A stretch of 35,634 nt of DNA. It comes from Bacteroidetes bacterium MedPE-SWsnd-G1 (GTDB lineage: Bacteria > Bacteroidota > Bacteroidia > Flavobacteriales > Flavobacteriaceae). Location: NCBI GenBank assembly GCA_001874265.1, contig MPDD01000028.1, positions 1 through 35,634 on the forward strand. Reading direction: 5' to 3'. This document shows, piece by piece, positions 1-35,634 of this stretch (position 1 is the first letter of the stretch; each line of letters begins with the position of its first letter). The notes beneath the pieces are model-generated. The model searched no databases, was not told the DNA's origin, and saw nothing but the letters and a program-made list of their open reading frames with translations. The translations under genes were made by a program, and so were the position numbers.

Positions 1-197
1 AGTTTAAAATTTTAAAAACAGGTAATATTGAAATAGTTGGTGTACGTGCTCCACATCCTGATCTTGAAAAAGAAACAAGAAGAGATATTGGATTATTGCC
101 AGAAATTAAACCTGGAAAATTTGATGGTAAAGAAGTGAATGTAATGTATATGTTACCAATTACGTTTAACATCACTGGCGACAGTGAAAGTAAATAA
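1..197 (+). CDS. TonB-family C-terminal domain protein, 3' fragment
   Basis: The reading frame is open from base 3 to a TAA at 195-197 and gives the last 64 residues of a protein cut by the window edge. The pattern matches the TonB C-terminal domain of Bacteroidota: a V-G-V-R-A-P-H-P stretch, an acidic/basic helix (DLEKETRRDIG), LPEIKPGKFDGKEV, then the closing strand MYMLPITFNI. This domain docks onto the TonB box of outer-membrane receptors to pass on proton-motive energy. The N-terminal anchor and proline-rich linker are outside the window. A clear intrinsic terminator follows 55 bases after the stop. It could instead be a TonB-C domain protein with another role, since Bacteroidota have many. 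Confidence 0.75.
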   Translation, partial: FKILKTGNIEIVGVRAPHPDLEKETRRDIGLLPEIKPGKFDGKEVNVMYMLPITFNITGDSESK

Positions 198-251
198 AAT
201 GAATTCTGTGAAAAAGAAATTTCAGTATGCTATTAAAGCTTTTTTAGTGTT

Positions 252-279
252 AAAAACCGAGGTGAAATCTTCGGTTTTT
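252..279 (+). terminator. Intrinsic terminator of the tonB-like gene
   Basis: The 9-bp stem aaaaaccga / tcggttttt encloses a 10-base loop, with the A-run on one side and the T-run on the other. It starts 55 bases after the tonB-like stop and points in the same direction. Confidence 0.85.
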
Positions 280-404
280 ACTGTTTTAGATTGATTGTTT
301 TTACAGCAAGAGTTACCGATAGTCTAATAGAAATTGGAAAAATAACTAATTTTTAGAACGGGAAATAGAAGTGAAATAATTGGTTAATATATAAAGGGCT
401 ATTA

Positions 405-437
405 TTGAGGTTATTAAAATTTAAAAGACTATGTTTG
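405..437 (+). promoter_or_regulatory. Predicted Bacteroidota promoter of the histidine kinase gene
   Basis: A TATGTTTG at 430-437 matches the TAnnTTTG -7 box. A TTG at 405-407 is a possible -33 element, 22 bases upstream, which is within the range seen in Flavobacteriaceae. Transcription would start near 444 and give a leader of about 54 bases. The rest of 280-497 is AT-rich with no convincing ORF or RNA structure. Confidence 0.5.
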
Positions 438-497
438 TATTTAGCGCTTAATTAAATATCTAAGTTAAGTGTTAAATTAATCATAGAAAAAATTTAC

Positions 498-2312
498 ATG
501 TATCGTAGTCCCTATAGACTGTTAATAGTAGTCTTTATTACTATTAATGGATTATTTAATCATTCTTTATATTCACAAAAACAATTAGATTCTTTATTTG
601 CTGAAACGGCATTCCAATTAAATTTAAGCAAGGAATGTAAAGCTCAAAATGCTTTGAATCAAATTCAAGAGTTATATCCAGAACTTTCTGAAAAAGACGC
701 TTTGCGTTTTATCTATTATCAGGCGGCCATTAATATTAACAATGGAATAGATGATTTGGCGCTGGAAGGATTGTTAACGGGATTTACAAAATTAAAGAAT
801 TTAGAAACATCAAAATACCATCATTTATACGCCGAAGAAATCGGACGGATTTATGGAAGAGCTAATGACTTTAAGCTTGCGATAGATTTTTTTAAACAAG
901 GTTTAAGTTTTGCAACCGAACAAAATGATTCGCTTGCAATTAGTAGTGCCTATTTAAATATTGGAAGCATTTATCAAATGAAGCAAGAAATGGGTATTGC
1001 TGAAGTAAATTATGAAAAAATGCTACGCTTTTTTCCTACTGAAGGAGGAGATACTGAAACATTGGCAACGGTATATAGCAATTTAATAGGAATAGCCTTA
1101 GGTAAGGGAGAATTTGATTTGGCGCAGGATTATGGAATAAAATCGGTCGAAATTCATACCCAAAATAAAGATACCCTAAAGTTGGCAGGGGTACTTTCTA
1201 ATTCGGGATCTATTAGTATGTACTTAAAAGAATTAGATAAATCTAACGATTATTATTTTAAGGCGTACGAATTGTTGAAAGACCGAACAGATACAAAATC
1301 TAGAGAAATAACAGCCTTAACCTTAGATAATATTTCTCAGGTGTATTATTTAAAAGAAAGTTATAAGAACGGATATGATTACTTGTTCGAAGGCACCTCA
1401 ATAGAGCGTGAGTTAAGTAAGGAAAAACTAGCGAACAAAATATCTGAAATTGGTGCGAAATACGCTTTAGAGGAAAAAGAAAAGCAAACGGAAATAGAGC
1501 GCTCAAAAAAAGAAAGCCGTGAATTACTTTTATACATTTTAGGAATTGCCTTGGCAGGAACTTTAGTTTCAATATTTCTTTTTATAAGAGCAACAAAATT
1601 AAAAAGAGCTAAGACTAAACTTGAATTTGAAAGAGAAAAGATTGAACAAGCACACGAAATAGAGAAAATGCAAAATGATGTGCAAATGAAAATACTAAAT
1701 GCAACCTTAGATGGAAGGGAAGCCGAGCGAAAACATATTTCTGAAATATTACATGACACTGTAAGTTCTTTGCTATCGTCTGCTAATTTGCACGTAGTTG
1801 CTGTAAAAATGCAGTTAAAAGAACAGTCACCACCTGAGGTGGAAAAGATTCAGGCTATTATTTCAGAGACTTCTGATAAGGTTAGAGATCTATCTCATAA
1901 ATTAATGTCTTCCGTTCTATTAAAGTTTGGATTACGTACCGCAATTGAGGATTTATGTGAGAAATATTCAAATTCAAGGTTAACATTTAAGTTTGAAGCA
2001 AAAGATATAGGAAGATATGATGAGCATTTTGAAGTGAAAACGCATCATATTATTGAAGAGTTGGCAAATAACATTATGAAGCATAGTAATGCTTATAATG
2101 CATCTATTAGAATGAGGGTTGTAAAGAATAAATTAAATATCGAAATTTTTGATGATGGAGATGGATTCAATTTACAAGAAGTGACTAAAAAGGATGGACT
2201 TGGTCTAACACAAGTGAAGGCTAGAGTCAAGGTTATGAATGGGAAAATTGAAATTAAACCATTTGAGAATACCGGGACTCAAATCTATATAGATCTTCCT
2301 ATTCCAAATTAA
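498..2312 (+). CDS. TPR-containing membrane sensor histidine kinase (HisKA_3/NarL-partner type)
   Basis: 604 residues. A signal-peptide-like N-terminus (about 1-26, ending LYSQ) precedes a periplasmic region of helical TPR repeats (about 50-300), a membrane span at about 342-363 (LLLYILGIALAGTLVSIFLF), a coiled coil (366-400), and a kinase core. The phospho-acceptor helix holds ERKHISEILHD with His419. The ATPase has an N box (NNIMKHS, 524-530), DDGDGF (552-557) and GLGL (567-570). Kinases of this form phosphorylate LuxR/NarL-type regulators, but no regulator gene is adjacent. The lipoprotein gene follows after 31 bases, probably in the same transcript. Arm A has Ser236 (base C1204) where arm B has Leu; Leu is the usual residue in the N-L-G position of a TPR, so arm A looks wrong here. 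The signal is unknown. Confidence 0.88.
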   Translation: MYRSPYRLLIVVFITINGLFNHSLYSQKQLDSLFAETAFQLNLSKECKAQNALNQIQELYPELSEKDALRFIYYQAAININNGIDDLALEGLLTGFTKLKNLETSKYHHLYAEEIGRIYGRANDFKLAIDFFKQGLSFATEQNDSLAISSAYLNIGSIYQMKQEMGIAEVNYEKMLRFFPTEGGDTETLATVYSNLIGIALGKGEFDLAQDYGIKSVEIHTQNKDTLKLAGVLSNSGSISMYLKELDKSNDYYFKAYELLKDRTDTKSREITALTLDNISQVYYLKESYKNGYDYLFEGTSIERELSKEKLANKISEIGAKYALEEKEKQTEIERSKKESRELLLYILGIALAGTLVSIFLFIRATKLKRAKTKLEFEREKIEQAHEIEKMQNDVQMKILNATLDGREAERKHISEILHDTVSSLLSSANLHVVAVKMQLKEQSPPEVEKIQAIISETSDKVRDLSHKLMSSVLLKFGLRTAIEDLCEKYSNSRLTFKFEAKDIGRYDEHFEVKTHHIIEELANNIMKHSNAYNASIRMRVVKNKLNIEIFDDGDGFNLQEVTKKDGLGLTQVKARVKVMNGKIEIKPFENTGTQIYIDLPIPN

Positions 2313-2343
2313 AATTGTATTTTCACGTTATTATTTATTCCAA

Positions 2344-2814
2344 ATGATACAACGCTTTACTTGTTTATTTTTTTGTGGATTGTTATTAATGTCATGCGAT
2401 TTTTTTCAAAAGAAAAAACTTGCTGAAGAAGAAATGATTGATACCATAATAGATTATAAATCGGTAGATACGTTTCCATTATTTCCTGATTGTGACAGTA
2501 TTCCTTCACATGAAAAACAACGTGTATGTTCTCAAATAAAATTATCGGAGCATATATTTGCGTCGCTCTCTGAAAGTAATATTATAACTGCCAGAAAGGT
2601 TGCTGATACGGTTAGAGTAAAGCTACTTGTTTCAAGTTCGGGAAAAGTTTCACTTACCAATGTAGAAATGTCAGATAATTTATTAAAGCAAATACCTACA
2701 ATAGATAGTTTGCTTAAAAATAGTATTGCAACTATGCCGGTTTTAAAACCAGCATTGAAAAGAGGGATTCCTGTTGCGACAGAATTTAGCCTTCCAATAG
2801 TTATTGTGAATTAA
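2344..2814 (+). CDS. Small lipoprotein with a TonB-C-like C-terminal half
   Basis: 156 residues. The N-terminus is a lipoprotein signal: positive start, hydrophobic stretch, then lipobox L-M-S-C with Cys18 as the lipidation site. A charged linker follows. From about residue 90 the pattern is [20 protein letters not shown], a helix ending [16 protein letters not shown], then [11 protein letters not shown], which resembles the strand-helix-strand layout and closing x-LPI-x of the TonB C-terminal domain. The protein is probably anchored in the envelope and exposed to the periplasm. It has no membrane helix or proline-rich linker, so it is not a conventional energy transducer. Its stop overlaps the stop of the opposing obg gene by four bases (TTAA, 2811-2814). 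Function is unknown; a link to the kinase upstream is inference from spacing only. Confidence 0.7.
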
Positions 2815-3803
2815 TCATTTAACATTTGCCACAACTTGTCTTTTAGCTCCACCAAGCCCATTTGAGCCACAGAAGAAATAAACATATGTGGAATTTCTTT
2901 CGGAACTTCTTTTTCAAGTTCTGTTTTCAATTCCTCATCTAACATATCAGATTTAGAAATAACTAACAGTCGTTCTTTATCTAAAAGTTCTGGATTGTGC
3001 TGTTTTAATTCATTTAACAATACCGCATACTCTTTTGCTATATCATCGCTATCAGCAGGTATTAAAAAGAGCAATGTAGAGTTACGTTCTATATGTCTTA
3101 AAAATCGATGTCCTAAGCCCTTTCCTTCATGTGCTCCTTCAATAATACCTGGAATATCAGCCATTACAAATGTTTTGTAATCGCGATATTTTACAATACC
3201 AAGGTTTGGTTTTAATGTTGTAAAGGCATAATCAGCAATTTTTGGTTTTGCAGCCGTTAAAACAGAAAGTAAGGTAGATTTACCAGCATTCGGAAAGCCA
3301 ACTAAACCAACATCAGCCAATATTTTTAATTCGATTTGAAACCATCCATCTTTACCATCAATTCCAGGTTGTGCATAACGAGGAGTTTGATTTGTAGAAG
3401 ACTTAAAATGCCAGTTACCGCGACCACCTTTACCACCTTCTTGTAAAATAATTTCTTCACCATCAGCAGTGATTTCATGAATTATTTCTTCAGTTTCTGG
3501 GTCTCGTACAATAGTGCCAAGCGGTACATCTATATAAACATCCTTACCGTCTTTACCAGTACTTCTGCCGGAAGAGCCGTCACCACCATGCTCGGCCTTA
3601 AAGTGTTTTTTAAACTTCATATGAAACAAAGTCCAAAGATTTTTGTCTGCACGTAAAATAACATGGCCTCCACGTCCTCCATCACCACCATCGGGTCCAC
3701 CTTTGGCAATATACTTTTCGCGATGTAAATGCACAGAGCCTTTACCTCCTTTTCCAGAAGCAGCGTGAATTTTTATATAGTCGACAAAATTTCCTTCAGT
3801 CAT
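2811..3803 (-). CDS. obg: GTPase Obg (CgtA), ribosome assembly
   Basis: 330 residues. The glycine-rich Obg fold is at 1-160, with repeated GG motifs such as [14 protein letters not shown]. The G domain has G1 GFPNAGKST (169-177), the TT switch at 195-196, G3 DIPG (216-219), G4 SKSD (283-286, a variant of NKxD) and G5 SSV (310-312). There is no C-terminal OCT domain, a common short form. Obg is an essential GTPase of large-subunit assembly that also responds to ppGpp. It lies 66 bases downstream of hpt-adk on the same strand and probably shares its transcript. The ATG start directly precedes the conserved N-terminus. It converges on the lipoprotein gene with a 4-base overlap, which leaves no room for a terminator between them. 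Confidence 0.97.
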
Positions 3804-3869
3804 GATTTCAAGTTTTATTGTTCAATTCTGAATGGTAAAATCAGGTAAACAATTTAATTGATTGCTCTT

Positions 3870-4982
3870 TTAAAGCGTGTCTATGATAGCACTTAATCTA
3901 TCTGTAATTTCTTCAATACCACCAACACCGTTTGCACCAAAGTATTTGTTTTGCTTTGCGTAATAGTCTTTTAAAACGGCCGTTTTTGTATTGTACTCAT
4001 TAAATCGATTGCGGATTTTCTCTTCATCTTGATCATCCGATCTTCCACTCGTTTTTCCACGTTCTAATAAACGCTCAACTAATAAATCTTCAGAAACTTC
4101 TAAAGCAATCATTCCATTAATGGTTTCTCCTTTTTCGGATAAGAATGCATCCAAGGCTTCTGCTTGTGAAGATGTTCTTGGGAATCCATCAAAAATAAAT
4201 CCTTTGGCGTCAGCATTTTTTTCTACTTCTGCCTTTAACATATTAATTGTTACTTCATCAGGAACCAAATTTCCATCATCCATATAAGACTTTGCCAAAA
4301 GACCTAATTCTGTTTGGTTTTTGATGTTAAACCTAAATACATCTCCAGTTGAAATGTGTACAAGGTTGTATTTTTCTTTTAATAAATCTGCTTGTGTTCC
4401 TTTACCGGCACCAGGAGGGCCAAATAATACAATATTAGTCATGTTGGGTGTTGTTATTTTATAAATGCTGTCTATGTTTCTTCCTAAATTATCATAATCC
4501 AATCCATATCCTACAATGAATTCATCGGGAATAGATAGACCAATAAAATCTATTGGTAATTCTTTTTTAAATACATCTGGTTTAAAGAAAAGTGTGGCAA
4601 TTTTTAATTTACCAACATTTTTATCCTTAAAAATTTCATAGATTTTTTGAAGCGTGTTTCCGGTATCAATAATGTCTTCTAAGATTACTACAGTTCTACC
4701 TGTTAAATCTTCATTTATACCTACCAATTCGTTTACTTCTCCTGTTGATTGCATGCCTTCATAAGATGCCATTTTTACAAAAGAAACCTCACATGCACGA
4801 GGATATTCTCTAATAAAATCTGCAACGAACATAAATGACCCATTTAGAATTCCAATAAAAATTGGCACTTCATCTTTACAGTCGTTGGCTATTTCATTAA
4901 CTAAATTGCTTATAACTTTTTGAACCATTTCTTTAGAAATATATGGTTCAAAGTATTTGTCATGCAGTTTAATAGTGCTCAT
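3870..4982 (-). CDS. Fused hypoxanthine phosphoribosyltransferase - adenylate kinase
   Basis: 370 residues with two enzymes in one chain. Residues 1-177 are a type I phosphoribosyltransferase with the PRPP loop VVILEDIIDTGNTL (98-111), which converts hypoxanthine or guanine to the nucleotide. Residues 181-370 are adenylate kinase: P-loop GPPGAGKGTQ (188-197), NMP-binding STGDVFR, DGFPRT (265-270) and a short LID (RGKTSGRSDD). Met181 sits exactly where a free adenylate kinase would begin, so the fusion looks like read-through joining of adjacent genes. I chose the ATG at 4982 because a longer frame to 5015 starts with TTG, and the predicted -7 box (5004-5011) and the secDF terminator lie inside that extension. 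It is co-directional with obg. Both activities serve purine nucleotide balance. Confidence 0.93.
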   Translation of the reverse strand: MSTIKLHDKYFEPYISKEMVQKVISNLVNEIANDCKDEVPIFIGILNGSFMFVADFIREYPRACEVSFVKMASYEGMQSTGEVNELVGINEDLTGRTVVILEDIIDTGNTLQKIYEIFKDKNVGKLKIATLFFKPDVFKKELPIDFIGLSIPDEFIVGYGLDYDNLGRNIDSIYKITTPNMTNIVLFGPPGAGKGTQADLLKEKYNLVHISTGDVFRFNIKNQTELGLLAKSYMDDGNLVPDEVTINMLKAEVEKNADAKGFIFDGFPRTSSQAEALDAFLSEKGETINGMIALEVSEDLLVERLLERGKTSGRSDDQDEEKIRNRFNEYNTKTAVLKDYYAKQNKYFGANGVGGIEEITDRLSAIIDTL

Positions 4983-5003
4983 GTCTTTTCGAATAGGAAA
5001 ATG

Positions 5004-5011
5004 CAAAAATA
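5004..5011 (-). promoter_or_regulatory. Predicted -7 box for hpt-adk/obg
   Basis: Read leftward this is TATTTTTG, a match to TAnnTTTG, 21 bases before the chosen ATG. No clear TTG lies 17-23 bases upstream because that space is taken by the secDF terminator stem. It supports the shorter hpt-adk start. Confidence 0.5.
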
Positions 5012-5013
5012 AC

Positions 5014-5041
5014 AAAAAACCGCCTCATAGTGAGACGGTTT
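5014..5041 (-). terminator. secDF: Intrinsic terminator of secDF
   Basis: Read leftward, a 10-bp stem (aaaccgtctc / gaggcggttt, one T-G wobble) with a five-base loop and a T-run lies about 20 bases past the secDF stop. The T-run ends three bases before the predicted -7 box of hpt-adk. Confidence 0.85.
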
Positions 5042-5062
5042 CTTAGCTTATTTGAGTTGGGT

Positions 5063-8029
5063 TTATTTTTTACCCTTGTCTAATTTTTTTGACGTGTCAT
5101 ACATAATTGGAGATGCAATAAATAATGATGAGTATGTACCCACAATTACACCAACAATTAAAGCAAACATAAATCCTCTAATAGAATCTCCACCGAAAAG
5201 GAATATTGCAGATAACACTACTAATGTTGTAATAGAAGTATTAATTGTTCTACCTAATGTATTGCTCAATGCGCTGTTTACAATTCTATTGAATTTCCAA
5301 GAACTATGCTGATTTGTATACTCTCTAATACGGTCAAATATTACCACGGTATCATTCAATGAATACCCAACAACTGTTAAAATTGCTGCAATAAATGATT
5401 GTCCAATTTCCATATCAAATGGCATCACTTTGTATAATAAAGAGAAAATAGATAATACGATTAATACATCGTGGAATACTGCGGTAACAGCACCTAAACT
5501 ATATTGCCATTTTCTAAATCGTATTAAGATGTATAAGAATACAACCAATAACGATCCAACGATAGCCCAAGTTGCAGCAGTTTTAATATCATCTGCAATT
5601 GTAGGCTCAACTTTTATCTGACTTTCTATACCAGCAGCACGAGGACCTTCATAATCAACTTTAAATTGATCTAATGTCATTCCGTCTGGTAAATAAGTTT
5701 GTAATCCTGTAAATAGTAAATCTCTTACTTCATCATCAACAGTGTTTCCATCTTCGTCAATTCTGAACTTCGTTGTAATTTTTAACTGACTTGCAGCACC
5801 GTATGTTTTCACCTCTGGAGCATCTTCAAAAACATCTTTCAATGTTCCTGCAACTTCAGAAGCATTCATTGCGTTTTTAAATTTAACAACGCAAGAACGT
5901 CCTCCAACAAAATCAACTCCGTAGTTTAAGCTGTTAGTAAACAAAGAACCAATACCTCCTAAGATAATCAATCCAGAAATAGCGTATGCAATTTTTCTTT
6001 TCTTTAAGAAATCTACATTGATATTTTGGAACCAACTCTTAGTGATGTTGGTGTTAAAAGTTAAACTGCTGTTTTTATTCGTAGACCAGTTTAAGATAAT
6101 ACGCGTAATAAATACTGCTGTAAAGAATGAAGTTACAATACCTAACATTAAGGTGTAAGCAAATCCTTTAATTGGTCCAGTACCAAATACAAATAAGATA
6201 ACACCTGTTAAGAATGTAGTAACGTTGGCATCTAAAATTGCAGATAAGGCTCCTTTAAAACTGAATCCACCAGCAATGGCTTCTTTCAATCCTTTGCCCC
6301 CTGATAATTCTTCTTTAATACGTTCAAAGATAATTACGTTCGCATCTACAGACATACCAATTGTTAAGATAATACCTGCAATACCTGGTAATGTTAATAC
6401 TGCGCCAAATGACGCTAACCAACCAAATAAGAATAGGATGTTAACTGCCAAGGCAATGTTTGCATATAAACCTGCTTTACCATAATAGAATACCATCCAA
6501 ATTAAAACCAAGATTAAGGCCAATCCGAAAGATCTAAAACTGCTATCAATTGCTTTTTGTCCTAAAGATGGTCCAACAACCGCTTTTTGAACAATATGAG
6601 CTGCAGCTGGAAGTTTACCTGCTTTTAATACGTTTGCTAAATCTTCTGCTTCAGTAATGGTCATGTTTCCACCAGAAATAGAAGTGCTACCCGCTAAGAT
6701 AGGATCTCCTACTCTAGGTGCAGAGTGTACTTCGTTATCTAAAACTACAGCAACAAATCCTCCGTTTGCATTTTCCGTAGTTAATTTAGCCCATAATTTT
6801 GTTCCAACAGAATTCATTTTCATGCTAACTTCTGGGTTGTTACCAAATTGGTCAAAACCTTGTCTAGCATCGTCAATTACATCTCCCTCAATTGGAGCAA
6901 TATCTTCACGGTTAGATTTAATAGCATATAAACCTAAGATTTCTCCATTTGGCTTTGCGTCCCATAAGAACTTAGCATAACGCTGCTCTGATGGTAATAA
7001 TGCTCTAATATCTTTGTTTGCTAAGAATGCATTTACTTTTGCTGTATCCGCAACAGCCGCTTGTCCAATTAAAGAACTTGCTTGCTGTGGGTTCTGAGCA
7101 ACATTTGGATATAAGTAAGCAAATAATCTGTTTTGTCTTGTTGGAGTCGTAATTGAATCAGAAACTTCTCCTAATAAGTCGTCTAAGTTTTCTTCAGTTG
7201 AAGCAGTGTCTGCAACTTCTTCGGTTGCAAATAACTCCGCTGTTTTAGCATCAGCGGCATATAAGAAACTTTGAATATCTACATTTTTATATGCTTCCCA
7301 AAACTCTAATTCAGCTGTACTTTGTAATAATTTTTCAACACGATCAACATCTTTTGCTCCTGGTAATTCAATTAAAATTCTTCCTGAAGTTCCAATTCGT
7401 TGAATGTTTGGTTGTGTTACACCAAATTTGTCAATTCTGTTTCTTAATACTTGAAACGCAGTAGAGATAGAAGCGTTAATTTCTTCTTCAATAATTGGCT
7501 TTACTTCGTCGTTTGTATTTCTAAATGTAATTTTATCACATAAAGATTTGTTGCCAAAAATGCTAGGGTCACTAAGGTTAACAGTTCCATTACTTACCGT
7601 TTCAAACTCTTCAAAAAAGATATCTAAGAAACGTTGGTTACTACTTTTTTGTTTTGCACTTGCAGTTTCTAAGGCTTCTCTAAACGCTGGGTTTTTAGAA
7701 TCGTTAGACAATCCTACCAAGATATCCTTAACAGATACTTGCAAAATAGCGTTGATACCTCCTTTTAAATCCAACCCTAAATTCATAGACTTGTCTTTAA
7801 TATCGTTGTAAGAATAATTGAAAAGAGGAACAATGGTATCGTTTGCTACAGAATCTAAATAGATTCTCTCAAACCTTGCTATTTGTGTAGCATCACCCGC
7901 TGCTTTTTCAATCGCAAATTCTTTTGCATCATCCGTAACATTTTTTGCGAACCAAGTAAATGATAATTGGTACAAACTCAATAATCCAAAGAGGATTGCA
8001 AATAACTTTATAAGTCCTTTGTTTTGCAT
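5063..8029 (-). CDS. secDF: Single-chain protein translocase subunit SecDF (arm A variant)
   Basis: 988 residues in which SecD and SecF are fused, the usual form in Bacteroidota. It uses the proton gradient to pull secreted proteins out of the SecYEG channel. SecD part: first membrane span (8-25), GLDLKGG motif (85-91), large periplasmic domain, then a five-helix bundle from about 500 with SVDANVIIFERIKEEL. SecF part: span from about 676, a GVDFVGGRS motif, a periplasmic domain, and a helix bundle with SLNDTVVIFDRIREY (about 886-900). Arm A differs from arm B at Leu17/Val, Ala115/Val, Cys164/Ser, Cys713/Tyr and Lys718/Glu, plus silent changes at 7553 and 7673. Arm B SecDF has no cysteine at all, so both arm A cysteines, in periplasmic regions, are suspect. 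Confidence 0.96.
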   Translation of the reverse strand: MQNKGLIKLFAILFGLLSLYQLSFTWFAKNVTDDAKEFAIEKAAGDATQIARFERIYLDSVANDTIVPLFNYSYNDIKDKSMNLGLDLKGGINAILQVSVKDILVGLSNDSKNPAFREALETASAKQKSSNQRFLDIFFEEFETVSNGTVNLSDPSIFGNKSLCDKITFRNTNDEVKPIIEEEINASISTAFQVLRNRIDKFGVTQPNIQRIGTSGRILIELPGAKDVDRVEKLLQSTAELEFWEAYKNVDIQSFLYAADAKTAELFATEEVADTASTEENLDDLLGEVSDSITTPTRQNRLFAYLYPNVAQNPQQASSLIGQAAVADTAKVNAFLANKDIRALLPSEQRYAKFLWDAKPNGEILGLYAIKSNREDIAPIEGDVIDDARQGFDQFGNNPEVSMKMNSVGTKLWAKLTTENANGGFVAVVLDNEVHSAPRVGDPILAGSTSISGGNMTITEAEDLANVLKAGKLPAAAHIVQKAVVGPSLGQKAIDSSFRSFGLALILVLIWMVFYYGKAGLYANIALAVNILFLFGWLASFGAVLTLPGIAGIILTIGMSVDANVIIFERIKEELSGGKGLKEAIAGGFSFKGALSAILDANVTTFLTGVILFVFGTGPIKGFAYTLMLGIVTSFFTAVFITRIILNWSTNKNSSLTFNTNITKSWFQNINVDFLKKRKIAYAISGLIILGGIGSLFTNSLNYGVDFVGGRSCVVKFKNAMNASEVAGTLKDVFEDAPEVKTYGAASQLKITTKFRIDEDGNTVDDEVRDLLFTGLQTYLPDGMTLDQFKVDYEGPRAAGIESQIKVEPTIADDIKTAATWAIVGSLLVVFLYILIRFRKWQYSLGAVTAVFHDVLIVLSIFSLLYKVMPFDMEIGQSFIAAILTVVGYSLNDTVVIFDRIREYTNQHSSWKFNRIVNSALSNTLGRTINTSITTLVVLSAIFLFGGDSIRGFMFALIVGVIVGTYSSLFIASPIMYDTSKKLDKGKK

Positions 8030-8067
8030 TCTAAACTAATTTTAATCTAATATTTTTTATAAACGTG

Positions 8068-8075
8068 CAAATATA
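8068..8075 (-). promoter_or_regulatory. secDF: Predicted -7 box for secDF
   Basis: Read leftward this is TATATTTG, an exact TAnnTTTG match, 38 bases before the secDF ATG. No exact TTG is placed for a -33 element; a TTTCG lies in roughly that position. Confidence 0.5.
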
Positions 8076-8214
8076 AAATTTTCAGCACGAAATGCTAGTA
8101 TTTTTTAAGATTAATTCAAGGGCTTGATTGTTAGCGAATTCACTATATACATGGGATTGTTGATTGTTCCGTAAAAAACTGATTATTATCAGGAATGCAC
8201 AATTTAGGAAATAG

Positions 8215-8222
8215 TATATTTA
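8215..8222 (+). promoter_or_regulatory. fhs: Possible -7 box for fhs
   Basis: TATATTTA is one base off TAnnTTTG and lies 20 bases before the chosen fhs ATG at 8243. It falls inside the possible 16-residue N-terminal extension, which favours the shorter start. Bases 8030-8242 form the divergent control region of secDF and fhs; nothing else is visible there. Confidence 0.35.
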
Positions 8223-8242
8223 CGTACTTAAAAATTTATGCC

Positions 8243-9919: not shown

Positions 9920-9944
9920 ATAATTTTTTTCACAAAAAATAAAT

Positions 9945-10011
9945 GTCATTTTGAGCGAAGTCGAAAAATCTCAATTAGTTATTAGGGATTCTTCATTTTA
10001 TTCAGAATGAC
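9945..10011. repeat. REP-like imperfect palindrome between convergent genes
   Basis: The outer arms gtcattttga and ttcagaatgac pair with one mismatch. Inside, gaaaaatctc and gggattcttc pair imperfectly, so the element can fold into a long hairpin. A T-run follows on each side (10012-10018 on +, and T-rich on the other strand), so it could end both fhs and the alkB-like gene. The half-site gagcgaagtcgaaaaatctc resembles a dispersed intergenic repeat I recall from many Flavobacteriaceae genomes; its copy number cannot be judged from this window. Confidence 0.6.
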
Positions 10012-10023
10012 TTTTTTTAGTAC

Positions 10024-11049: not shown

Positions 11050-11083
11050 TTCGTATAATTGAAATAGCAATATACATAAAAAG

Positions 11084-11112
11084 AAAAATCCCCAATTGAT
11101 GAATTGAGGATT
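11084..11112 (-). terminator. mdh: Intrinsic terminator of mdh
   Basis: Read leftward, an 11-bp stem (aatcctcaatt / aattggggatt, one wobble) with a CATC loop and a T-run lies 22 bases past the mdh stop. It separates mdh from the alkB-like gene. Confidence 0.8.
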
Positions 11113-11134
11113 CTCTACATATATTAAGGAAGGA

Positions 11135-12058: not shown

Positions 12059-12094
12059 TTATATATTTTTTTAGATTGATAAAATTTTGAGTCG

Positions 12095-12102
12095 CAAATT
12101 TA
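12095..12102 (-). promoter_or_regulatory. mdh: Predicted -7 box for mdh
   Basis: Read leftward this is TAAATTTG, an exact TAnnTTTG match, 36 bases before the mdh ATG. No exact -33 TTG was found at the right distance. Confidence 0.5.
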
Positions 12103-23540: not shown

Positions 23541-23576
23541 CGACTCAAAATTTTATCAATCTAAAAAAATATATAA

Positions 23577-24500: not shown

Positions 24501-24522
24501 TCCTTCCTTAATATATGTAGAG

Positions 24523-24551
24523 AATCCTCAATTCATCAATTGGGGATTTTT
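24523..24551 (+). terminator. mdh: Mirror copy: mdh terminator
   Basis: An 11-bp stem with one wobble, a CATC loop and a T-run, 22 bases past the mdh stop. Confidence 0.8.
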
Positions 24552-24585
24552 CTTTTTATGTATATTGCTATTTCAATTATACGAA

Positions 24586-25611: not shown

Positions 25612-25623
25612 GTACTAAAAAAA

Positions 25624-25690
25624 GTCATTCTGAATAAAATGAAGAATCCCTAATAACTAATTGAGATTTTTCGACTTCGCTCAAAATGAC
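25624..25690. repeat. Mirror copy: REP-like imperfect palindrome
   Basis: The mirror of 9945-10011, between the convergent alkB-like and fhs genes. The outer gtcatt/aatgac arms and the internal imperfect pairing are the same. Confidence 0.6.
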
Positions 25691-25715
25691 ATTTATTTTT
25701 TGTGAAAAAAATTAT

Positions 25716-27392: not shown

Positions 27393-27412
27393 GGCATAAA
27401 TTTTTAAGTACG

Positions 27413-27420
27413 TAAATATA
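27413..27420 (-). promoter_or_regulatory. fhs: Mirror copy: possible fhs -7 box
   Basis: Read leftward this is TATATTTA, one base off consensus, 20 bases before the chosen ATG. Confidence 0.35.
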
Positions 27421-27559
27421 CTATTTCCTAAATTGTGCATTCCTGATAATAATCAGTTTTTTACGGAACAATCAACAATCCCATGTATATAGTGAATTCG
27501 CTAACAATCAAGCCCTTGAATTAATCTTAAAAAATACTAGCATTTCGTGCTGAAAATTT

Positions 27560-27567
27560 TATATTTG
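27560..27567 (+). promoter_or_regulatory. secDF: Mirror copy: secDF -7 box
   Basis: TATATTTG, 38 bases before the secDF ATG at 27606. Confidence 0.5.
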
Positions 27568-27605
27568 CACGTTTATAAAAAATATTAGATTAAAATTAGT
27601 TTAGA

Positions 27606-30572
27606 ATGCAAAACAAAGGACTTATAAAGTTATTTGCAATCCTCTTTGGATTAGTGAGTTTGTACCAATTATCATTTACTTGGTTCGCAAAAAATGTTAC
27701 GGATGATGCAAAAGAATTTGCGATTGAAAAAGCAGCGGGTGATGCTACACAAATAGCAAGGTTTGAGAGAATCTATTTAGATTCTGTAGCAAACGATACC
27801 ATTGTTCCTCTTTTCAATTATTCTTACAACGATATTAAAGACAAGTCTATGAATTTAGGGTTGGATTTAAAAGGAGGTATCAACGCTATTTTGCAAGTAT
27901 CTGTTAAGGATATCTTGGTAGGATTGTCTAACGATTCTAAAAACCCAGTGTTTAGAGAAGCTTTAGAAACTGCAAGTGCAAAACAAAAAAGTAGTAACCA
28001 ACGTTTCTTAGATATCTTTTTTGAAGAGTTTGAAACGGTAAGTAATGGAACTGTTAACCTTAGTGACCCTAGCATTTTTGGTAACAAATCTTTAAGTGAT
28101 AAAATTACATTTAGAAATACAAACGACGAAGTAAAGCCAATTATTGAAGAAGAAATTAACGCTTCTATCTCTACTGCGTTTCAAGTATTAAGAAACAGAA
28201 TTGACAAATTTGGTGTAACACAACCAAACATTCAACGAATTGGAACTTCAGGAAGAATTTTAATTGAATTACCAGGAGCAAAAGATGTTGATCGTGTTGA
28301 AAAATTATTACAAAGTACAGCTGAATTAGAGTTTTGGGAAGCATATAAAAATGTAGATATTCAAAGTTTCTTATATGCCGCTGATGCTAAAACAGCGGAG
28401 TTATTTGCAACCGAAGAAGTTGCAGACACTGCTTCAACTGAAGAAAACTTAGACGACTTATTAGGAGAAGTTTCTGATTCAATTACGACTCCAACAAGAC
28501 AAAACAGATTATTTGCTTACTTATATCCAAATGTTGCTCAGAACCCACAGCAAGCAAGTTCTTTAATTGGACAAGCGGCTGTTGCGGATACAGCAAAAGT
28601 AAATGCATTCTTAGCAAACAAAGATATTAGAGCATTATTACCATCAGAGCAGCGTTATGCTAAGTTCTTATGGGACGCAAAGCCAAATGGAGAAATCTTA
28701 GGTTTATATGCTATTAAATCTAACCGTGAAGATATTGCTCCAATTGAGGGAGATGTAATTGACGATGCTAGACAAGGTTTTGACCAATTTGGTAACAACC
28801 CAGAAGTTAGCATGAAAATGAATTCTGTTGGAACAAAATTATGGGCTAAATTAACTACGGAAAATGCAAACGGAGGATTTGTTGCTGTAGTTTTAGATAA
28901 CGAAGTACACTCTGCACCTAGAGTAGGAGATCCTATCTTAGCGGGTAGCACTTCTATTTCTGGTGGAAACATGACCATTACTGAAGCAGAAGATTTAGCA
29001 AACGTATTAAAAGCAGGTAAACTTCCAGCTGCAGCTCATATTGTTCAAAAAGCGGTTGTTGGACCATCTTTAGGACAAAAAGCAATTGATAGCAGTTTTA
29101 GATCTTTCGGATTGGCCTTAATCTTGGTTTTAATTTGGATGGTATTCTATTATGGTAAAGCAGGTTTATATGCAAACATTGCCTTGGCAGTTAACATCCT
29201 ATTCTTATTTGGTTGGTTAGCGTCATTTGGCGCAGTATTAACATTACCAGGTATTGCAGGTATTATCTTAACAATTGGTATGTCTGTAGATGCGAACGTA
29301 ATTATCTTTGAACGTATTAAAGAAGAATTATCAGGGGGCAAAGGATTGAAAGAAGCCATTGCTGGTGGATTCAGTTTTAAAGGAGCCTTATCTGCAATTT
29401 TAGATGCCAACGTTACTACATTCTTAACAGGTGTTATCTTATTTGTATTTGGTACTGGACCAATTAAAGGATTTGCTTACACCTTAATGTTAGGTATTGT
29501 AACTTCATTCTTTACAGCAGTATTTATTACGCGTATTATCTTAAACTGGTCTACGAATAAAAACAGCAGTTTAACTTTTAACACCAACATCACTAAGAGT
29601 TGGTTCCAAAATATCAATGTAGATTTCTTAAAGAAAAGAAAAATTGCATACGCTATTTCTGGATTGATTATCTTAGGAGGTATTGGTTCTTTGTTTACTA
29701 ACAGCTTAAACTACGGAGTTGATTTTGTTGGAGGACGTTCTTACGTTGTTAAATTTGAAAACGCAATGAATGCTTCTGAAGTTGCAGGAACATTGAAAGA
29801 TGTTTTTGAAGATGCTCCAGAGGTGAAAACATACGGTGCTGCAAGTCAGTTAAAAATTACAACGAAGTTCAGAATTGACGAAGATGGAAACACTGTTGAT
29901 GATGAAGTAAGAGATTTACTATTTACAGGATTACAAACTTATTTACCAGACGGAATGACATTAGATCAATTTAAAGTTGATTATGAAGGTCCTCGTGCTG
30001 CTGGTATAGAAAGTCAGATAAAAGTTGAGCCTACAATTGCAGATGATATTAAAACTGCTGCAACTTGGGCTATCGTTGGATCGTTATTGGTTGTATTCTT
30101 ATACATCTTAATACGATTTAGAAAATGGCAATATAGTTTAGGTGCTGTTACCGCAGTATTCCACGATGTATTAATCGTATTATCTATTTTCTCTTTATTA
30201 TACAAAGTGATGCCATTTGATATGGAAATTGGACAATCATTTATTGCAGCAATTTTAACAGTTGTTGGGTATTCATTGAATGATACCGTGGTAATATTTG
30301 ACCGTATTAGAGAGTATACAAATCAGCATAGTTCTTGGAAATTCAATAGAATTGTAAACAGCGCATTGAGCAATACATTAGGTAGAACAATTAATACTTC
30401 TATTACAACATTAGTAGTGTTATCTGCAATATTCCTTTTCGGTGGAGATTCTATTAGAGGATTTATGTTTGCTTTAATTGTTGGTGTAATTGTGGGTACA
30501 TACTCATCATTATTTATTGCATCTCCAATTATGTATGACACGTCAAAAAAATTAGACAAGGGTAAAAAATAA
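27606..30572 (+). CDS. secDF: Mirror copy: SecDF, better-quality version
   Basis: The mirror of 5063-8029, 988 residues. This arm has Val17, Val115, Ser164, Tyr713 and Glu718. It contains no cysteine, as is common for proteins with large periplasmic domains. The SecF stretch after GVDFVGGRS reads YVVKFEN, which fits an amphipathic strand better than arm A's CVVKFKN. I take this as the reference sequence for the gene. GLDLKGG, SVDANVIIFERIKEEL and SLNDTVVIFDRIREY are intact. Confidence 0.96.
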   Translation: MQNKGLIKLFAILFGLVSLYQLSFTWFAKNVTDDAKEFAIEKAAGDATQIARFERIYLDSVANDTIVPLFNYSYNDIKDKSMNLGLDLKGGINAILQVSVKDILVGLSNDSKNPVFREALETASAKQKSSNQRFLDIFFEEFETVSNGTVNLSDPSIFGNKSLSDKITFRNTNDEVKPIIEEEINASISTAFQVLRNRIDKFGVTQPNIQRIGTSGRILIELPGAKDVDRVEKLLQSTAELEFWEAYKNVDIQSFLYAADAKTAELFATEEVADTASTEENLDDLLGEVSDSITTPTRQNRLFAYLYPNVAQNPQQASSLIGQAAVADTAKVNAFLANKDIRALLPSEQRYAKFLWDAKPNGEILGLYAIKSNREDIAPIEGDVIDDARQGFDQFGNNPEVSMKMNSVGTKLWAKLTTENANGGFVAVVLDNEVHSAPRVGDPILAGSTSISGGNMTITEAEDLANVLKAGKLPAAAHIVQKAVVGPSLGQKAIDSSFRSFGLALILVLIWMVFYYGKAGLYANIALAVNILFLFGWLASFGAVLTLPGIAGIILTIGMSVDANVIIFERIKEELSGGKGLKEAIAGGFSFKGALSAILDANVTTFLTGVILFVFGTGPIKGFAYTLMLGIVTSFFTAVFITRIILNWSTNKNSSLTFNTNITKSWFQNINVDFLKKRKIAYAISGLIILGGIGSLFTNSLNYGVDFVGGRSYVVKFENAMNASEVAGTLKDVFEDAPEVKTYGAASQLKITTKFRIDEDGNTVDDEVRDLLFTGLQTYLPDGMTLDQFKVDYEGPRAAGIESQIKVEPTIADDIKTAATWAIVGSLLVVFLYILIRFRKWQYSLGAVTAVFHDVLIVLSIFSLLYKVMPFDMEIGQSFIAAILTVVGYSLNDTVVIFDRIREYTNQHSSWKFNRIVNSALSNTLGRTINTSITTLVVLSAIFLFGGDSIRGFMFALIVGVIVGTYSSLFIASPIMYDTSKKLDKGKK

Positions 30573-30593
30573 ACCCAACTCAAATAAGCTAAG

Positions 30594-30621
30594 AAACCGT
30601 CTCACTATGAGGCGGTTTTTT
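30594..30621 (+). terminator. secDF: Mirror copy: secDF terminator
   Basis: A 10-bp stem with one wobble, a five-base loop and a T-run directly before the hpt-adk -7 box. Confidence 0.85.
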
Positions 30622-30623
30622 GT

Positions 30624-30631
30624 TATTTTTG
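30624..30631 (+). promoter_or_regulatory. Mirror copy: hpt-adk -7 box
   Basis: TATTTTTG, 21 bases before the hpt-adk ATG at 30653 and two bases after the secDF terminator's T-run. Confidence 0.5.
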
Positions 30632-30652
30632 CATTTTCCTATTCGAAAAGAC

Positions 30653-31765
30653 ATGAGCACTATTAAACTGCATGACAAATACTTTGAACCATATATTTCT
30701 AAAGAAATGGTTCAAAAAGTTATAAGCAATTTAGTTAATGAAATAGCCAACGACTGTAAAGATGAAGTGCCAATTTTTATTGGAATTCTAAATGGGTCAT
30801 TTATGTTCGTTGCAGATTTTATTAGAGAATATCCTCGTGCATGTGAGGTTTCTTTTGTAAAAATGGCATCTTATGAAGGCATGCAATCAACAGGAGAAGT
30901 AAACGAATTGGTAGGTATAAATGAAGATTTAACAGGTAGAACTGTAGTAATCTTAGAAGACATTATTGATACCGGAAACACGCTTCAAAAAATCTATGAA
31001 ATTTTTAAGGATAAAAATGTTGGTAAATTAAAAATTGCCACACTTTTCTTTAAACCAGATGTATTTAAAAAAGAATTACCAATAGATTTTATTGGTCTAT
31101 CTATTCCCGATGAATTCATTGTAGGATATGGATTGGATTATGATAATTTAGGAAGAAACATAGACAGCATTTATAAAATAACAACACCCAACATGACTAA
31201 TATTGTATTATTTGGCCCTCCTGGTGCCGGTAAAGGAACACAAGCAGATTTATTAAAAGAAAAATACAACCTTGTACACATTTCAACTGGAGATGTATTT
31301 AGGTTTAACATCAAAAACCAAACAGAATTAGGTCTTTTGGCAAAGTCTTATATGGATGATGGAAATTTGGTTCCTGATGAAGTAACAATTAATATGTTAA
31401 AGGCAGAAGTAGAAAAAAATGCTGACGCCAAAGGATTTATTTTTGATGGATTCCCAAGAACATCTTCTCAAGCAGAAGCCTTGGATGCATTCTTATCCGA
31501 AAAAGGAGAAACCATTAATGGAATGATTGCTTTAGAAGTTTCTGAAGATTTATTAGTTGAGCGTTTATTAGAACGTGGAAAAACGAGTGGAAGATCGGAT
31601 GATCAAGATGAAGAGAAAATCCGCAATCGATTTAATGAGTACAATACAAAAACGGCCGTTTTAAAAGACTATTACGCAAAGCAAAACAAATACTTTGGTG
31701 CAAACGGTGTTGGTGGTATTGAAGAAATTACAGATAGATTAAGTGCTATCATAGACACGCTTTAA
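30653..31765 (+). CDS. Mirror copy: fused Hpt-adenylate kinase
   Basis: The mirror of 3870-4982, with an identical 370-residue protein. The PRPP loop (98-111), P-loop (188-197) and internal Met181 are as in arm A. The longer frame from 30620 starts with TTG inside the terminator T-run and is not credible as the true start. Confidence 0.93.
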   Translation: MSTIKLHDKYFEPYISKEMVQKVISNLVNEIANDCKDEVPIFIGILNGSFMFVADFIREYPRACEVSFVKMASYEGMQSTGEVNELVGINEDLTGRTVVILEDIIDTGNTLQKIYEIFKDKNVGKLKIATLFFKPDVFKKELPIDFIGLSIPDEFIVGYGLDYDNLGRNIDSIYKITTPNMTNIVLFGPPGAGKGTQADLLKEKYNLVHISTGDVFRFNIKNQTELGLLAKSYMDDGNLVPDEVTINMLKAEVEKNADAKGFIFDGFPRTSSQAEALDAFLSEKGETINGMIALEVSEDLLVERLLERGKTSGRSDDQDEEKIRNRFNEYNTKTAVLKDYYAKQNKYFGANGVGGIEEITDRLSAIIDTL

Positions 31766-31831
31766 AAGAGCAATCAATTAAATTGTTTACCTGATTTTAC
31801 CATTCAGAATTGAACAATAAAACTTGAAATC

Positions 31832-32824
31832 ATGACTGAAGGAAATTTTGTCGACTATATAAAAATTCACGCTGCTTCTGGAAAAGGAGGTAAAGGCTCT
31901 GTGCATTTACATCGCGAAAAGTATATTGCCAAAGGTGGACCCGATGGTGGTGATGGAGGACGTGGAGGCCATGTTATTTTACGTGCAGACAAAAATCTTT
32001 GGACTTTGTTTCATATGAAGTTTAAAAAACACTTTAAGGCCGAGCATGGTGGTGACGGCTCTTCCGGCAGAAGTACTGGTAAAGACGGTAAGGATGTTTA
32101 TATAGATGTACCGCTTGGCACTATTGTACGAGACCCAGAAACTGAAGAAATAATTCATGAAATCACTGCTGATGGTGAAGAAATTATTTTACAAGAAGGT
32201 GGTAAAGGTGGTCGCGGTAACTGGCATTTTAAGTCTTCTACAAATCAAACTCCTCGTTATGCACAACCTGGAATTGATGGTAAAGATGGATGGTTTCAAA
32301 TCGAATTAAAAATATTGGCTGATGTTGGTTTAGTTGGCTTTCCGAATGCTGGTAAATCTACCTTACTTTCTGTTTTAACGGCTGCAAAACCAAAAATTGC
32401 TGATTATGCCTTTACAACATTAAAACCAAACCTTGGTATTGTAAAATATCGCGATTACAAAACATTTGTAATGGCTGATATTCCAGGTATTATTGAAGGA
32501 GCACATGAAGGAAAGGGCTTAGGACATCGATTTTTAAGACATATAGAACGTAACTCTACATTGCTCTTTTTAATTCCTGCTGATAGCGATGATATAGCAA
32601 AAGAGTATGCGGTATTGTTAAATGAATTAAAACAGCACAATCCAGAACTTTTAGATAAAGAACGACTGTTAGTTATTTCTAAATCTGATATGTTAGATGA
32701 GGAATTGAAAACAGAACTTGAAAAAGAAGTTCCGAAAGAAATTCCACATATGTTTATTTCTTCTGTGGCTCAAATGGGCTTGGTGGAGCTAAAAGACAAG
32801 TTGTGGCAAATGTTAAATGATTAA
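31832..32824 (+). CDS. obg: Mirror copy: GTPase Obg
   Basis: The mirror of 2811-3803, with an identical 330-residue protein carrying the glycine-rich Obg fold and all five G motifs. Its stop again overlaps the lipoprotein stop by four bases. Confidence 0.97.
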
Positions 32825-33291
32825 TTCACAATAACTATTGGAAGGCTAAATTCTGTCGCAACAGGAATCCCTCTTTTCAATGCTGGTTTTAAAACCGGCA
32901 TAGTTGCAATACTATTTTTAAGCAAACTATCTATTGTAGGTATTTGCTTTAATAAATTATCTGACATTTCTACATTGGTAAGTGAAACTTTTCCCGAACT
33001 TGAAACAAGTAGCTTTACTCTAACCGTATCAGCAACCTTTCTGGCAGTTATAATATTACTTTCAGAGAGCGACGCAAATATATGCTCCGATAATTTTATT
33101 TGAGAACATACACGTTGTTTTTCATGTGAAGGAATACTGTCACAATCAGGAAATAATGGAAACGTATCTACCGATTTATAATCTATTATGGTATCAATCA
33201 TTTCTTCTTCAGCAAGTTTTTTCTTTTGAAAAAAATCGCATGACATCAATAACAATCCACAAAAAAATAAACAAGTAAAGCGTTGTATCAT
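32821..33291 (-). CDS. Mirror copy: lipoprotein with TonB-C-like domain
   Basis: The mirror of 2344-2814, with an identical 156-residue protein that includes the lipobox Cys18 and the closing SLPIVI strand. Confidence 0.7.
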
Positions 33292-33322
33292 TTGGAATAA
33301 ATAATAAGGTGAAAATACAATT

Positions 33323-35137
33323 TTAATTTGGAATAGGAAGATCTATATAGATTTGAGTCCCGGTATTCTCAAATGGTTTAATTTCAATTTTCCCATTCAT
33401 AACCTTGACTCTAGCCTTCACTTGTGTTAGACCAAGTCCATCCTTTTTAGTCACTTCTTGTAAATTGAATCCATCTCCATCATCAAAAATTTCGATATTT
33501 AATTTATTCTTTACAACCCTCATTCTAATAGATGCATTATAAGCATTACTATGCTTCATAATGTTATTTGCCAACTCTTCAATAATATGATGCGTTTTCA
33601 CTTCAAAATGCTCATCATATCTTCCTATATCTTTTGCTTCAAACTTAAATGTTAACCTTGAATTTGAATATTTCTCACATAAATCCTCAATTGCGGTACG
33701 TAATCCAAACTTTAATAGAACGGAAGACATTAATTTATGAGATAGATCTCTAACCTTATCAGAAGTCTCTGAAATAATAGCCTGAATCTTTTCCACCTCA
33801 GGTGGTGACTGTTCTTTTAACTGCATTTTTACAGCAACTACGTGCAAATTAGCAGACGATAGCAAAGAACTTACAGTGTCATGTAATATTTCAGAAATAT
33901 GTTTTCGCTCGGCTTCCCTTCCATCTAAGGTTGCATTTAGTATTTTCATTTGCACATCATTTTGCATTTTCTCTATTTCGTGTGCTTGTTCAATCTTTTC
34001 TCTTTCAAATTCAAGTTTAGTCTTAGCTCTTTTTAATTTTGTTGCTCTTATAAAAAGAAATATTGAAACTAAAGTTCCTGCCAAGGCAATTCCTAAAATG
34101 TATAAAAGTAATTCACGGCTTTCTTTTTTTGAGCGCTCTATTTCCGTTTGCTTTTCTTTTTCCTCTAAAGCGTATTTCGCACCAATTTCAGATATTTTGT
34201 TCGCTAGTTTTTCCTTACTTAACTCACGCTCTATTGAGGTGCCTTCGAACAAGTAATCATATCCGTTCTTATAACTTTCTTTTAAATAATACACCTGAGA
34301 AATATTATCTAAGGTTAAGGCTGTTATTTCTCTAGATTTTGTATCTGTTCGGTCTTTCAACAATTCGTACGCCTTAAAATAATAATCGTTAGATTTATCT
34401 AATTCTTTTAAGTACATACTAATAGATCCCAAATTAGAAAGTACCCCTGCCAACTTTAGGGTATCTTTATTTTGGGTATGAATTTCGACCGATTTTATTC
34501 CATAATCCTGCGCCAAATCAAATTCTCCCTTACCTAAGGCTATTCCTATTAAATTGCTATATACCGTTGCCAATGTTTCAGTATCTCCTCCTTCAGTAGG
34601 AAAAAAGCGTAGCATTTTTTCATAATTTACTTCAGCAATACCCATTTCTTGCTTCATTTGATAAATGCTTCCAATATTTAAATAGGCACTACTAATTGCA
34701 AGCGAATCATTTTGTTCGGTTGCAAAACTTAAACCTTGTTTAAAAAAATCTATCGCAAGCTTAAAGTCATTAGCTCTTCCATAAATCCGTCCGATTTCTT
34801 CGGCGTATAAATGATGGTATTTTGATGTTTCTAAATTCTTTAATTTTGTAAATCCCGTTAACAATCCTTCCAGCGCCAAATCATCTATTCCATTGTTAAT
34901 ATTAATGGCCGCCTGATAATAGATAAAACGCAAAGCGTCTTTTTCAGAAAGTTCTGGATATAACTCTTGAATTTGATTCAAAGCATTTTGAGCTTTACAT
35001 TCCTTGCTTAAATTTAATTGGAATGCCGTTTCAGCAAATAAAGAATCTAATTGTTTTTGTGAATATAAAGAATGATTAAATAATCCATTAATAGTAATAA
35101 AGACTACTATTAACAGTCTATAGGGACTACGATACAT
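33323..35137 (-). CDS. Mirror copy: TPR histidine kinase (Leu236 variant)
   Basis: The mirror of 498-2312, 604 residues. The only protein difference is Leu236 (TTG) in place of Ser (TCG), at mirror base 34431. It restores the N-L-G core of a TPR helix, so this arm probably gives the true sequence. His419 and the ATPase boxes are unchanged. Confidence 0.88.
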   Translation of the reverse strand: MYRSPYRLLIVVFITINGLFNHSLYSQKQLDSLFAETAFQLNLSKECKAQNALNQIQELYPELSEKDALRFIYYQAAININNGIDDLALEGLLTGFTKLKNLETSKYHHLYAEEIGRIYGRANDFKLAIDFFKQGLSFATEQNDSLAISSAYLNIGSIYQMKQEMGIAEVNYEKMLRFFPTEGGDTETLATVYSNLIGIALGKGEFDLAQDYGIKSVEIHTQNKDTLKLAGVLSNLGSISMYLKELDKSNDYYFKAYELLKDRTDTKSREITALTLDNISQVYYLKESYKNGYDYLFEGTSIERELSKEKLANKISEIGAKYALEEKEKQTEIERSKKESRELLLYILGIALAGTLVSIFLFIRATKLKRAKTKLEFEREKIEQAHEIEKMQNDVQMKILNATLDGREAERKHISEILHDTVSSLLSSANLHVVAVKMQLKEQSPPEVEKIQAIISETSDKVRDLSHKLMSSVLLKFGLRTAIEDLCEKYSNSRLTFKFEAKDIGRYDEHFEVKTHHIIEELANNIMKHSNAYNASIRMRVVKNKLNIEIFDDGDGFNLQEVTKKDGLGLTQVKARVKVMNGKIEIKPFENTGTQIYIDLPIPN

Positions 35138-35197
35138 GTAAATTTTTTCTATGATTAATTTAACACTTAACTTAGATATTTAATTAAGCGCTAAATA

Positions 35198-35230
35198 CAA
35201 ACATAGTCTTTTAAATTTTAATAACCTCAA
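35198..35230 (-). promoter_or_regulatory. Mirror copy: histidine kinase promoter
   Basis: The same TTG - 22 bases - TATGTTTG arrangement as in arm A, read leftward. Confidence 0.5.
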
Positions 35231-35355
35231 TAATAGCCCTTTATATATTAACCAATTATTTCACTTCTATTTCCCGTTCTAAAAATTAGTTATTTTTCCA
35301 ATTTCTATTAGACTATCGGTAACTCTTGCTGTAAAAACAATCAATCTAAAACAGT

Positions 35356-35383
35356 AAAAACCGAAGATTTCACCTCGGTTTTT
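35356..35383 (-). terminator. Mirror copy: terminator of the tonB-like gene
   Basis: A 9-bp stem with a 10-base loop and an A-run/T-run pair, identical to arm A. Confidence 0.85.
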
Positions 35384-35437
35384 AACACTAAAAAAGCTTT
35401 AATAGCATACTGAAATTTCTTTTTCACAGAATTCATT

Positions 35438-35634
35438 TTATTTACTTTCACTGTCGCCAGTGATGTTAAACGTAATTGGTAACATATACATTACATTCAC
35501 TTCTTTACCATCAAATTTTCCAGGTTTAATTTCTGGCAATAATCCAATATCTCTTCTTGTTTCTTTTTCAAGATCAGGATGTGGAGCACGTACACCAACT
35601 ATTTCAATATTACCTGTTTTTAAAATTTTAAACT
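35438..35634 (-). CDS. Mirror copy: TonB-family C-terminal fragment
   Basis: The mirror of 1-197. The gene is cut at exactly the same base as at the other end of the window, so it also gives 64 residues ending ITGDSESK. Identical truncation at both ends is what a single contig read forward and then back would produce. Confidence 0.75.
   Translation of the reverse strand, partial: FKILKTGNIEIVGVRAPHPDLEKETRRDIGLLPEIKPGKFDGKEVNVMYMLPITFNITGDSESK

Follow-up and report, generated by a model that had tools for sequence, protein, structure and literature searches.

The contig studied here, MPDD01000028.1 of the draft genome of Bacteroidetes bacterium MedPE-SWsnd-G1 (GCA_001874265.1), reads along a 17.8-kb arm and then back along the complementary strand of the same arm; all of its 35,634 bases were analysed and are referred to as the window. 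We are confident that the giant palindrome is not real but results from a fold-back misjoin at a natural terminator hairpin, and that the cell has the arm only once. We favour a misjoin because the genes expected beyond the symmetry axis lie on a second contig of the same genome, C26, which terminates in the same half-hairpin as the arm. A fold-back at a self-complementary site, as opposed to a true inverted duplication, was also the preferred reading of an initial annotation of this stretch, and it is upheld by the position of the C26 terminus inside the hairpin and by the finding of one outer neighbour, an end of contig C1.

The window is the whole of contig C21 (G000:C21, 1-35634) in a draft genome, G000, of 60 contigs and 2.70 Mb, with 85% completeness and 0.7% contamination. 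It equals its own reverse complement at all but 42 positions, which form 21 mirror pairs; the symmetry axis lies between 17817 and 17818, there is neither a spacer nor an indel, and the self-complementarity runs out to both window ends. Arm against arm, the identity is 99.88% (21 of 17,817 positions differ). The end-to-end, spacer-free palindrome described in the initial annotation is therefore there, but the word "perfect" does not hold, and the pairing of every base p with base 35635-p fails at the 42 positions. For an inverted match of 17.8 kb chance is not an issue; only its existence in the cell is in question. The elements of the palindrome are as follows.

1-17817, plus strand: arm A, a copy of what by gene order is an ordinary chromosomal block, carrying the allele disfavoured by relatives at 17 of 18 informative coding sites.
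17818-35634, minus strand: arm B, the mirror of arm A, with 21 substitutions and no indel.
17799-17836, no strand: the axis, a 38-nt palindromic predicted intrinsic terminator and probable misjoin site, centred 31 bp after the stop codon of a gene for a LysM protein.

When both ends of all contigs were compared, C21 was the sole contig of the 60 with mirrored ends, and whole-contig mirroring as a general habit of this assembly is thus not supported; the comparison covers 1,500 bases at the two ends of each contig, so that a fold-back inside a longer contig would escape it.

The evidence that carries the misjoin comes from the hairpin itself. The last 18 bases of C26 are identical to window positions 17799-17816 and end one base short of the axis. 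In the whole genome this 18-mer occurs at exactly three places, C21:17799-17816 (plus strand), C21:17819-17836 (minus strand) and C26:30968-30985, the contig terminus, while the reversed control pattern occurs at none. Under a first-order Markov model the expected number is about 0.003 in the genome as a whole and about 1e-6 within the terminal 20 positions of 118 contig ends. When window base 17817 is attached to the terminus of C26, the 38-nt perfect palindrome is restored. It appears that C26 and the arm reach one and the same hairpin from opposite sides, and that the assembly folded the arm back rather than joining it to C26. Three marks of a fold-back are found, with the arm followed by its own reverse complement out to both ends, a self-complementary axis, and the true continuation elsewhere, on C26.

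The hairpin at the axis is strong (-21.9 kcal/mol, z = -9.1), is accompanied by a T-run and follows shortly after a stop codon, as is characteristic of an intrinsic terminator; a terminator pattern scan of the window did not list it. Bidirectional intrinsic terminators are known to occur between convergent genes. The axis resembles them in its GC-rich stem, in the A-run and T-run that flank the stem and in its location right after a stop codon, and no difference in sequence was seen. Perfect-stem hairpins also follow the stop codon of the same LysM gene in two relatives, with 40 nt in G002 and 44 nt in G006 (centres 35 and 38 bases downstream), and a mismatched hairpin is visible after LysM in G010.

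The initial annotation had proposed searching relatives for what follows the pair of guaA and LysM genes. We compared the flanks of the LysM gene, on both sides, in seven of the 13 genus relatives with a LysM match. In all seven, LysM is followed on its 3' side by a convergent gene of about 185 codons and then by ccsBA; the interval between LysM and the 185-aa gene is interrupted in G006 (one 300-aa frame) and G009 (two small frames), G012 has a small frame ahead of ccsBA, and in G009 ccsBA is split across two frames. In the genome of the window the 185-aa gene is found on C26, at 24444-24998, after ccsBA. From there C26 continues with genes for an M28 peptidase, a photolyase, a short-chain dehydrogenase and an FG-GAP-repeat protein, and stops at 30985, 11 bases past the final stop codon. 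These four genes (L091:1111-6975, equal to C26:25110-30974) are absent between the 185-aa gene and LysM in all seven relatives. They look like an insertion between those two genes, since of the 13 other genomes of the genus one has no match to the M28 protein and the remaining 12 match it only in part, at E 3e-26 or weaker.

In a wider set of named LysM loci (the best 80 of 171, of which 74 have at least 1.2 kb of downstream sequence), a 185-aa homologue lies downstream of LysM, within the available flank, in 46 of the 80. It is missing from several loci with 4 kb of flank, and this neighbourhood is therefore not shared by the whole family; of the 12 closest rows (L108-L119), 11 have it, and the twelfth has only 578 bases left. 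One locus of this type, with a Lutibacter-type LysM gene, the 185-aa gene and ccsBA, occurs in a record titled Methylophaga sp. (L125, NVVK01000020.1), which is probably mislabelled or a mixed bin.

At the outer end of the arm, the G007 sequence past the block aligns to the right end of C1 (196,890 bases) as far as base 196,878, and by G007 coordinates this match lies 588 bases from the window end. The same outer-flank search gave two other matches, one of 354 bases at 72% inside C23, over the gene cut by the contig end, and one of 44 bases in C25; the C23 match, near which the window's own end also matches, is taken to be a paralogue of the cut gene. G007 synteny yielded no second contig end for the outer flank, although an unbinned contig could hold one, and none of the contig ends among the 60 contigs overlaps the ends of the window. 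In the true order, C26 would thus be followed by the 38-nt terminator and a single arm oriented as in 17818-35634, and C1 reversed would come after a gap of about 0.6 kb. Arm B, with its left end joined to C26, would stand in the correct layout, which is that of the relatives plus the four inserted genes.

We suggest the following course of events. The LysM gene and the FG-GAP-repeat gene, when C26 is joined to the axis, would be convergent and share one bidirectional terminator, the 38-nt perfect palindrome. Few reads would cross this hairpin. The normal continuation would be lost there, and the strand would continue on its own complement, either by a snap-back in the library or through an assembler that closed a tip onto its complement, and the result would be the arm followed by the reverse-complemented arm. 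Arm A would have taken up minor variants or errors, with arm B following the majority sequence.

Several observations weigh against this explanation, the differences between the arms among them. If the second arm were a plain echo of one path in the assembly graph, the arms should be identical; they differ at 21 of 17,817 positions, and a plain in-silico echo was rejected as the arms are not letter-identical. In arm A coordinates the mispaired positions, each with its mirror, are 1204, 2327, 2388, 3060, 4167, 5878, 5892, 7540, 7553, 7673, 7686, 7981, 8293, 8517, 8545, 10501, 16220, 16474, 16619, 17205 and 17426. The differences are also one-sided. At the 20 coding sites (the comparison leaves out the intergenic site 2327), relatives favour arm B at 17 and arm A at one, with two uninformative, where "favour" means that more relatives share the base of that arm; 1 to 13 relatives were available per site, and several margins are only 1 to 3. 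Counted by eye, 11 sites favour B and none favours A with a margin of at least 3. The differences are unevenly spaced as well: in four cases two neighbours lie within 30 bases of each other (p = 0.004), and a stretch of 5,719 bases is free of differences (p = 0.006), both tests having been chosen after the positions were seen. A simple fold-back predicts neither the one-sidedness nor the uneven spacing. Moreover, a simple search detected a comparable perfect hairpin after LysM in none of the other five of the seven relatives; hairpins were seen at just 3 of 118 other contig ends, and this assembly therefore has no general tendency to break at them; and the ends of the contigs show no end-to-end overlap of 12 bases or more, so that the word length we assign to the assembler, discussed below, rests on two ends only.

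Among the 20 coding differences, 11 are non-synonymous and 9 synonymous, where 78.6% would be expected to be non-synonymous without selection (p = 0.015); the sole difference in the frame for phosphoribosyltransferase and adenylate kinase (hpt/adk) is synonymous. At three residues that are invariant in the relatives, secDF Tyr713 (6 compared), fhs Val108 (4) and LysM Lys46 (13), it is arm A that is odd. Indel errors of long reads are not supported as a source, since there is no indel and the frames are open. Most likely arm A picked up minor variants or errors. Because short reads could not have phased such arms, which allele stands on which arm would say little in favour of two real copies.

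This asymmetry is nonetheless what might be expected if the window recorded a real, spacer-free, head-to-head inverted duplication of 17.8 kb, carried by part of the population, born at the terminator palindrome in a lineage that lacks any recognisable SbcCD, and with one arm accumulating mutations: the arms do differ, and arm A has the disfavoured allele at 17 of the 18 informative sites, as might be the case in a relaxed second copy. Inverted chromosome duplications centred on palindromes are mentioned in work on E. coli (PMC3315005), and none of the genus genomes gave an SbcD match above cut-off. We nevertheless consider a real duplication very improbable. The native continuation on C26 ends in the same half-hairpin, only one outer neighbour (the C1 end) was found, the outer ends of the arms coincide to the base, and the genes are open on both arms; if short reads were used, as the 55-base overlaps described below suggest, arms identical over 5.7 kb would be indistinguishable. 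The initial annotation had argued against a real palindrome from its instability in the presence of SbcCD-type nucleases. This argument is not usable here, because neither this genome nor any of the 13 others of the genus that were searched has an SbcD match above the family cut-off. The SbcD model has no match in G000 and none above cut-off in the 14 genus genomes (G000-G013), eight of which have weak partial matches, while 13 of 14 control genomes have matches, eight of them above cut-off. The SbcC model gives only two weak fragments in G000; all 14 controls match, one above cut-off. The genus may thus lack SbcCD, but the absence of SbcD comes from one model and partly incomplete genomes and is not proof.

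Even less credible, and in our view nearly negligible, is that a linear chromosome ends at the axis in a covalently closed hairpin and that the sequence was read through it onto the opposite strand. Such read-through would in general yield a palindrome of this kind, with its axis at the chromosome end. This would require that no sequence lie beyond the hairpin, and the candidate was rejected since C26 does lie beyond it, meeting the same hairpin from the other side with the genes that neighbour LysM in relatives; in G006, a single contig of 3.4 Mb, the LysM locus and its continuation are well inside the contig.

Returning to the misjoin, the remaining choice is between the assembler and the library. 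Exact sharing of 55 bases with another contig was found at 2 of 120 ends (C29 with C10, and C60 with C2; searched in the stretches compared). Overlaps of this length suggest a de Bruijn assembler run at k = 55, for example SPAdes with its default setting. Because the 38-nt palindrome is shorter than 55 bases (it is longer than 21 or 33), the fold-back would have to come from a smaller k, from a gap-closing step or from a snap-back in the library. Hairpins lie in the last 60 bases of the 3 ends mentioned above and in 12 of 2,242 interior stretches; they are somewhat commoner at ends, with small numbers.

A library origin, in which a strand or fragment snapped back at the hairpin and copied itself, so that the assembler faithfully reported molecules existing in the library, is a possibility that we hold to be plausible but on the whole doubtful. 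The axis falls exactly at a strong hairpin, as a snap-back would have it. Results given in PMC6515389 name inverted chimeras as the dominant type of single-end chimera in amplified human DNA (mean 91% in that one study), and palindromic contigs have been met in single-cell genomes (PMC12755884). The chimeras of multiple displacement amplification treated in PMC6515389 resemble our contig as inverted joins within one locus; as far as they are described there, they differ in that the join here is spacer-free and at the centre of a strong natural hairpin, and in that amplification of the sample is not established. Against such an origin, mirrored ends are seen in 1 of 60 contigs only. Copying by phi29 polymerase, whose error rate is far below 1e-3, would also not yield 21 changes in 17.8 kb.

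Comparable artefacts have been reported. A 2025 paper (PMC12755884) calls palindromic contigs in single-cell genomes very likely assembly artefacts; as here, the first half is mirrored in the second and ordinary genes are doubled, but the halves are said there to mirror exactly, whereas our contig has 21 differences over 17,817 positions and a named partner contig that is likely to be the correct one. Another reported artefact, identical sequence repeated within one contig, is alike in that sequence is wrongly written more than once; the repeats are identical, and the main text of that paper has no words beginning with "palindrom" or "hairpin". PMC7162821 deals with concatenation artefacts, in passages that do not include palindromic contigs.

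For the use of this genome, we suggest cutting the contig at its axis and keeping a single arm, to be inserted between C26 and C1. In this bin gyrB, guaA, obg and secDF are counted twice, which is very probably an error. Similar cases can be tested cheaply by searching the other contigs for an end that breaks off in the same half-hairpin. A real palindrome would be relevant to the question of how very long palindromes are tolerated in bacteria; the evidence is against this.

The genes of the arm are listed here in arm A coordinates, with the mirror copy in brackets. All four of the housekeeping genes named in the initial annotation (gyrB, guaA, obg and secDF) were recovered with open frames, and no tRNAs were found in the window.

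1-197, plus strand (mirror 35438-35634, minus): gene cut off at the contig end, of which the C-terminal part remains with its last 64 residues readable; presumably TonB-like.
498-2312, plus strand (33323-35137, minus): TPR/HisKA_3 sensor histidine kinase.
2344-2814, plus strand (32821-33291, minus): predicted protein of 156 aa, no Pfam match.
2811-3803, minus strand (31832-32824, plus): obg GTPase.
3870-5015, minus strand (30620-31765, plus): phosphoribosyltransferase and adenylate kinase (hpt/adk) in a single frame of 381 aa.
5063-8029, minus strand (27606-30572, plus): secDF, holding 7 of the 21 arm differences.
8195-9919, plus strand (25716-27440, minus): formate-tetrahydrofolate ligase (fhs).
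10024-11070, minus strand (24565-25611, plus): membrane protein of the FA_desaturase family.
11135-12058, minus strand (23577-24500, plus): malate/lactate dehydrogenase (mdh).
12210-14150, minus strand (21485-23425, plus): gyrB.
14490-16052, plus strand (19583-21145, minus): guaA.
16083-17786, plus strand (17849-19552, minus): LysM protein of 567 aa.

By comparison with the seven relatives, the arm is an ordinary chromosomal block. LysM, guaA, gyrB and mdh are present in the block of all seven; obg, the adenylate kinase frame and secDF in six; the 156-aa protein and the cut gene in five; the formate ligase and the desaturase-family gene in four; and the histidine kinase in one. The arm genes that are found in relatives have the same order and orientation as in the window and form one single block. 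The 381-aa phosphoribosyltransferase-adenylate kinase frame looks like a fused gene, with tblastn matches spanning nearly its full length in 6 of the 7 relatives.

A few minor features were seen at other contig ends. The right ends of C38 and C29 (L288, L279) carry palindromic hairpins of 28-30 nt, and the last 55 bases of C29 recur exactly inside C10. The first 35 bases of C43 and C52 (L227, L244) are 94% reverse-complementary to each other, a 12-mer is common to the starts of C46 and C44, and an A-rich 12-mer of the C12 end is present at the axis of the window. The end of C16 repeats 55 of its own bases at 98%.

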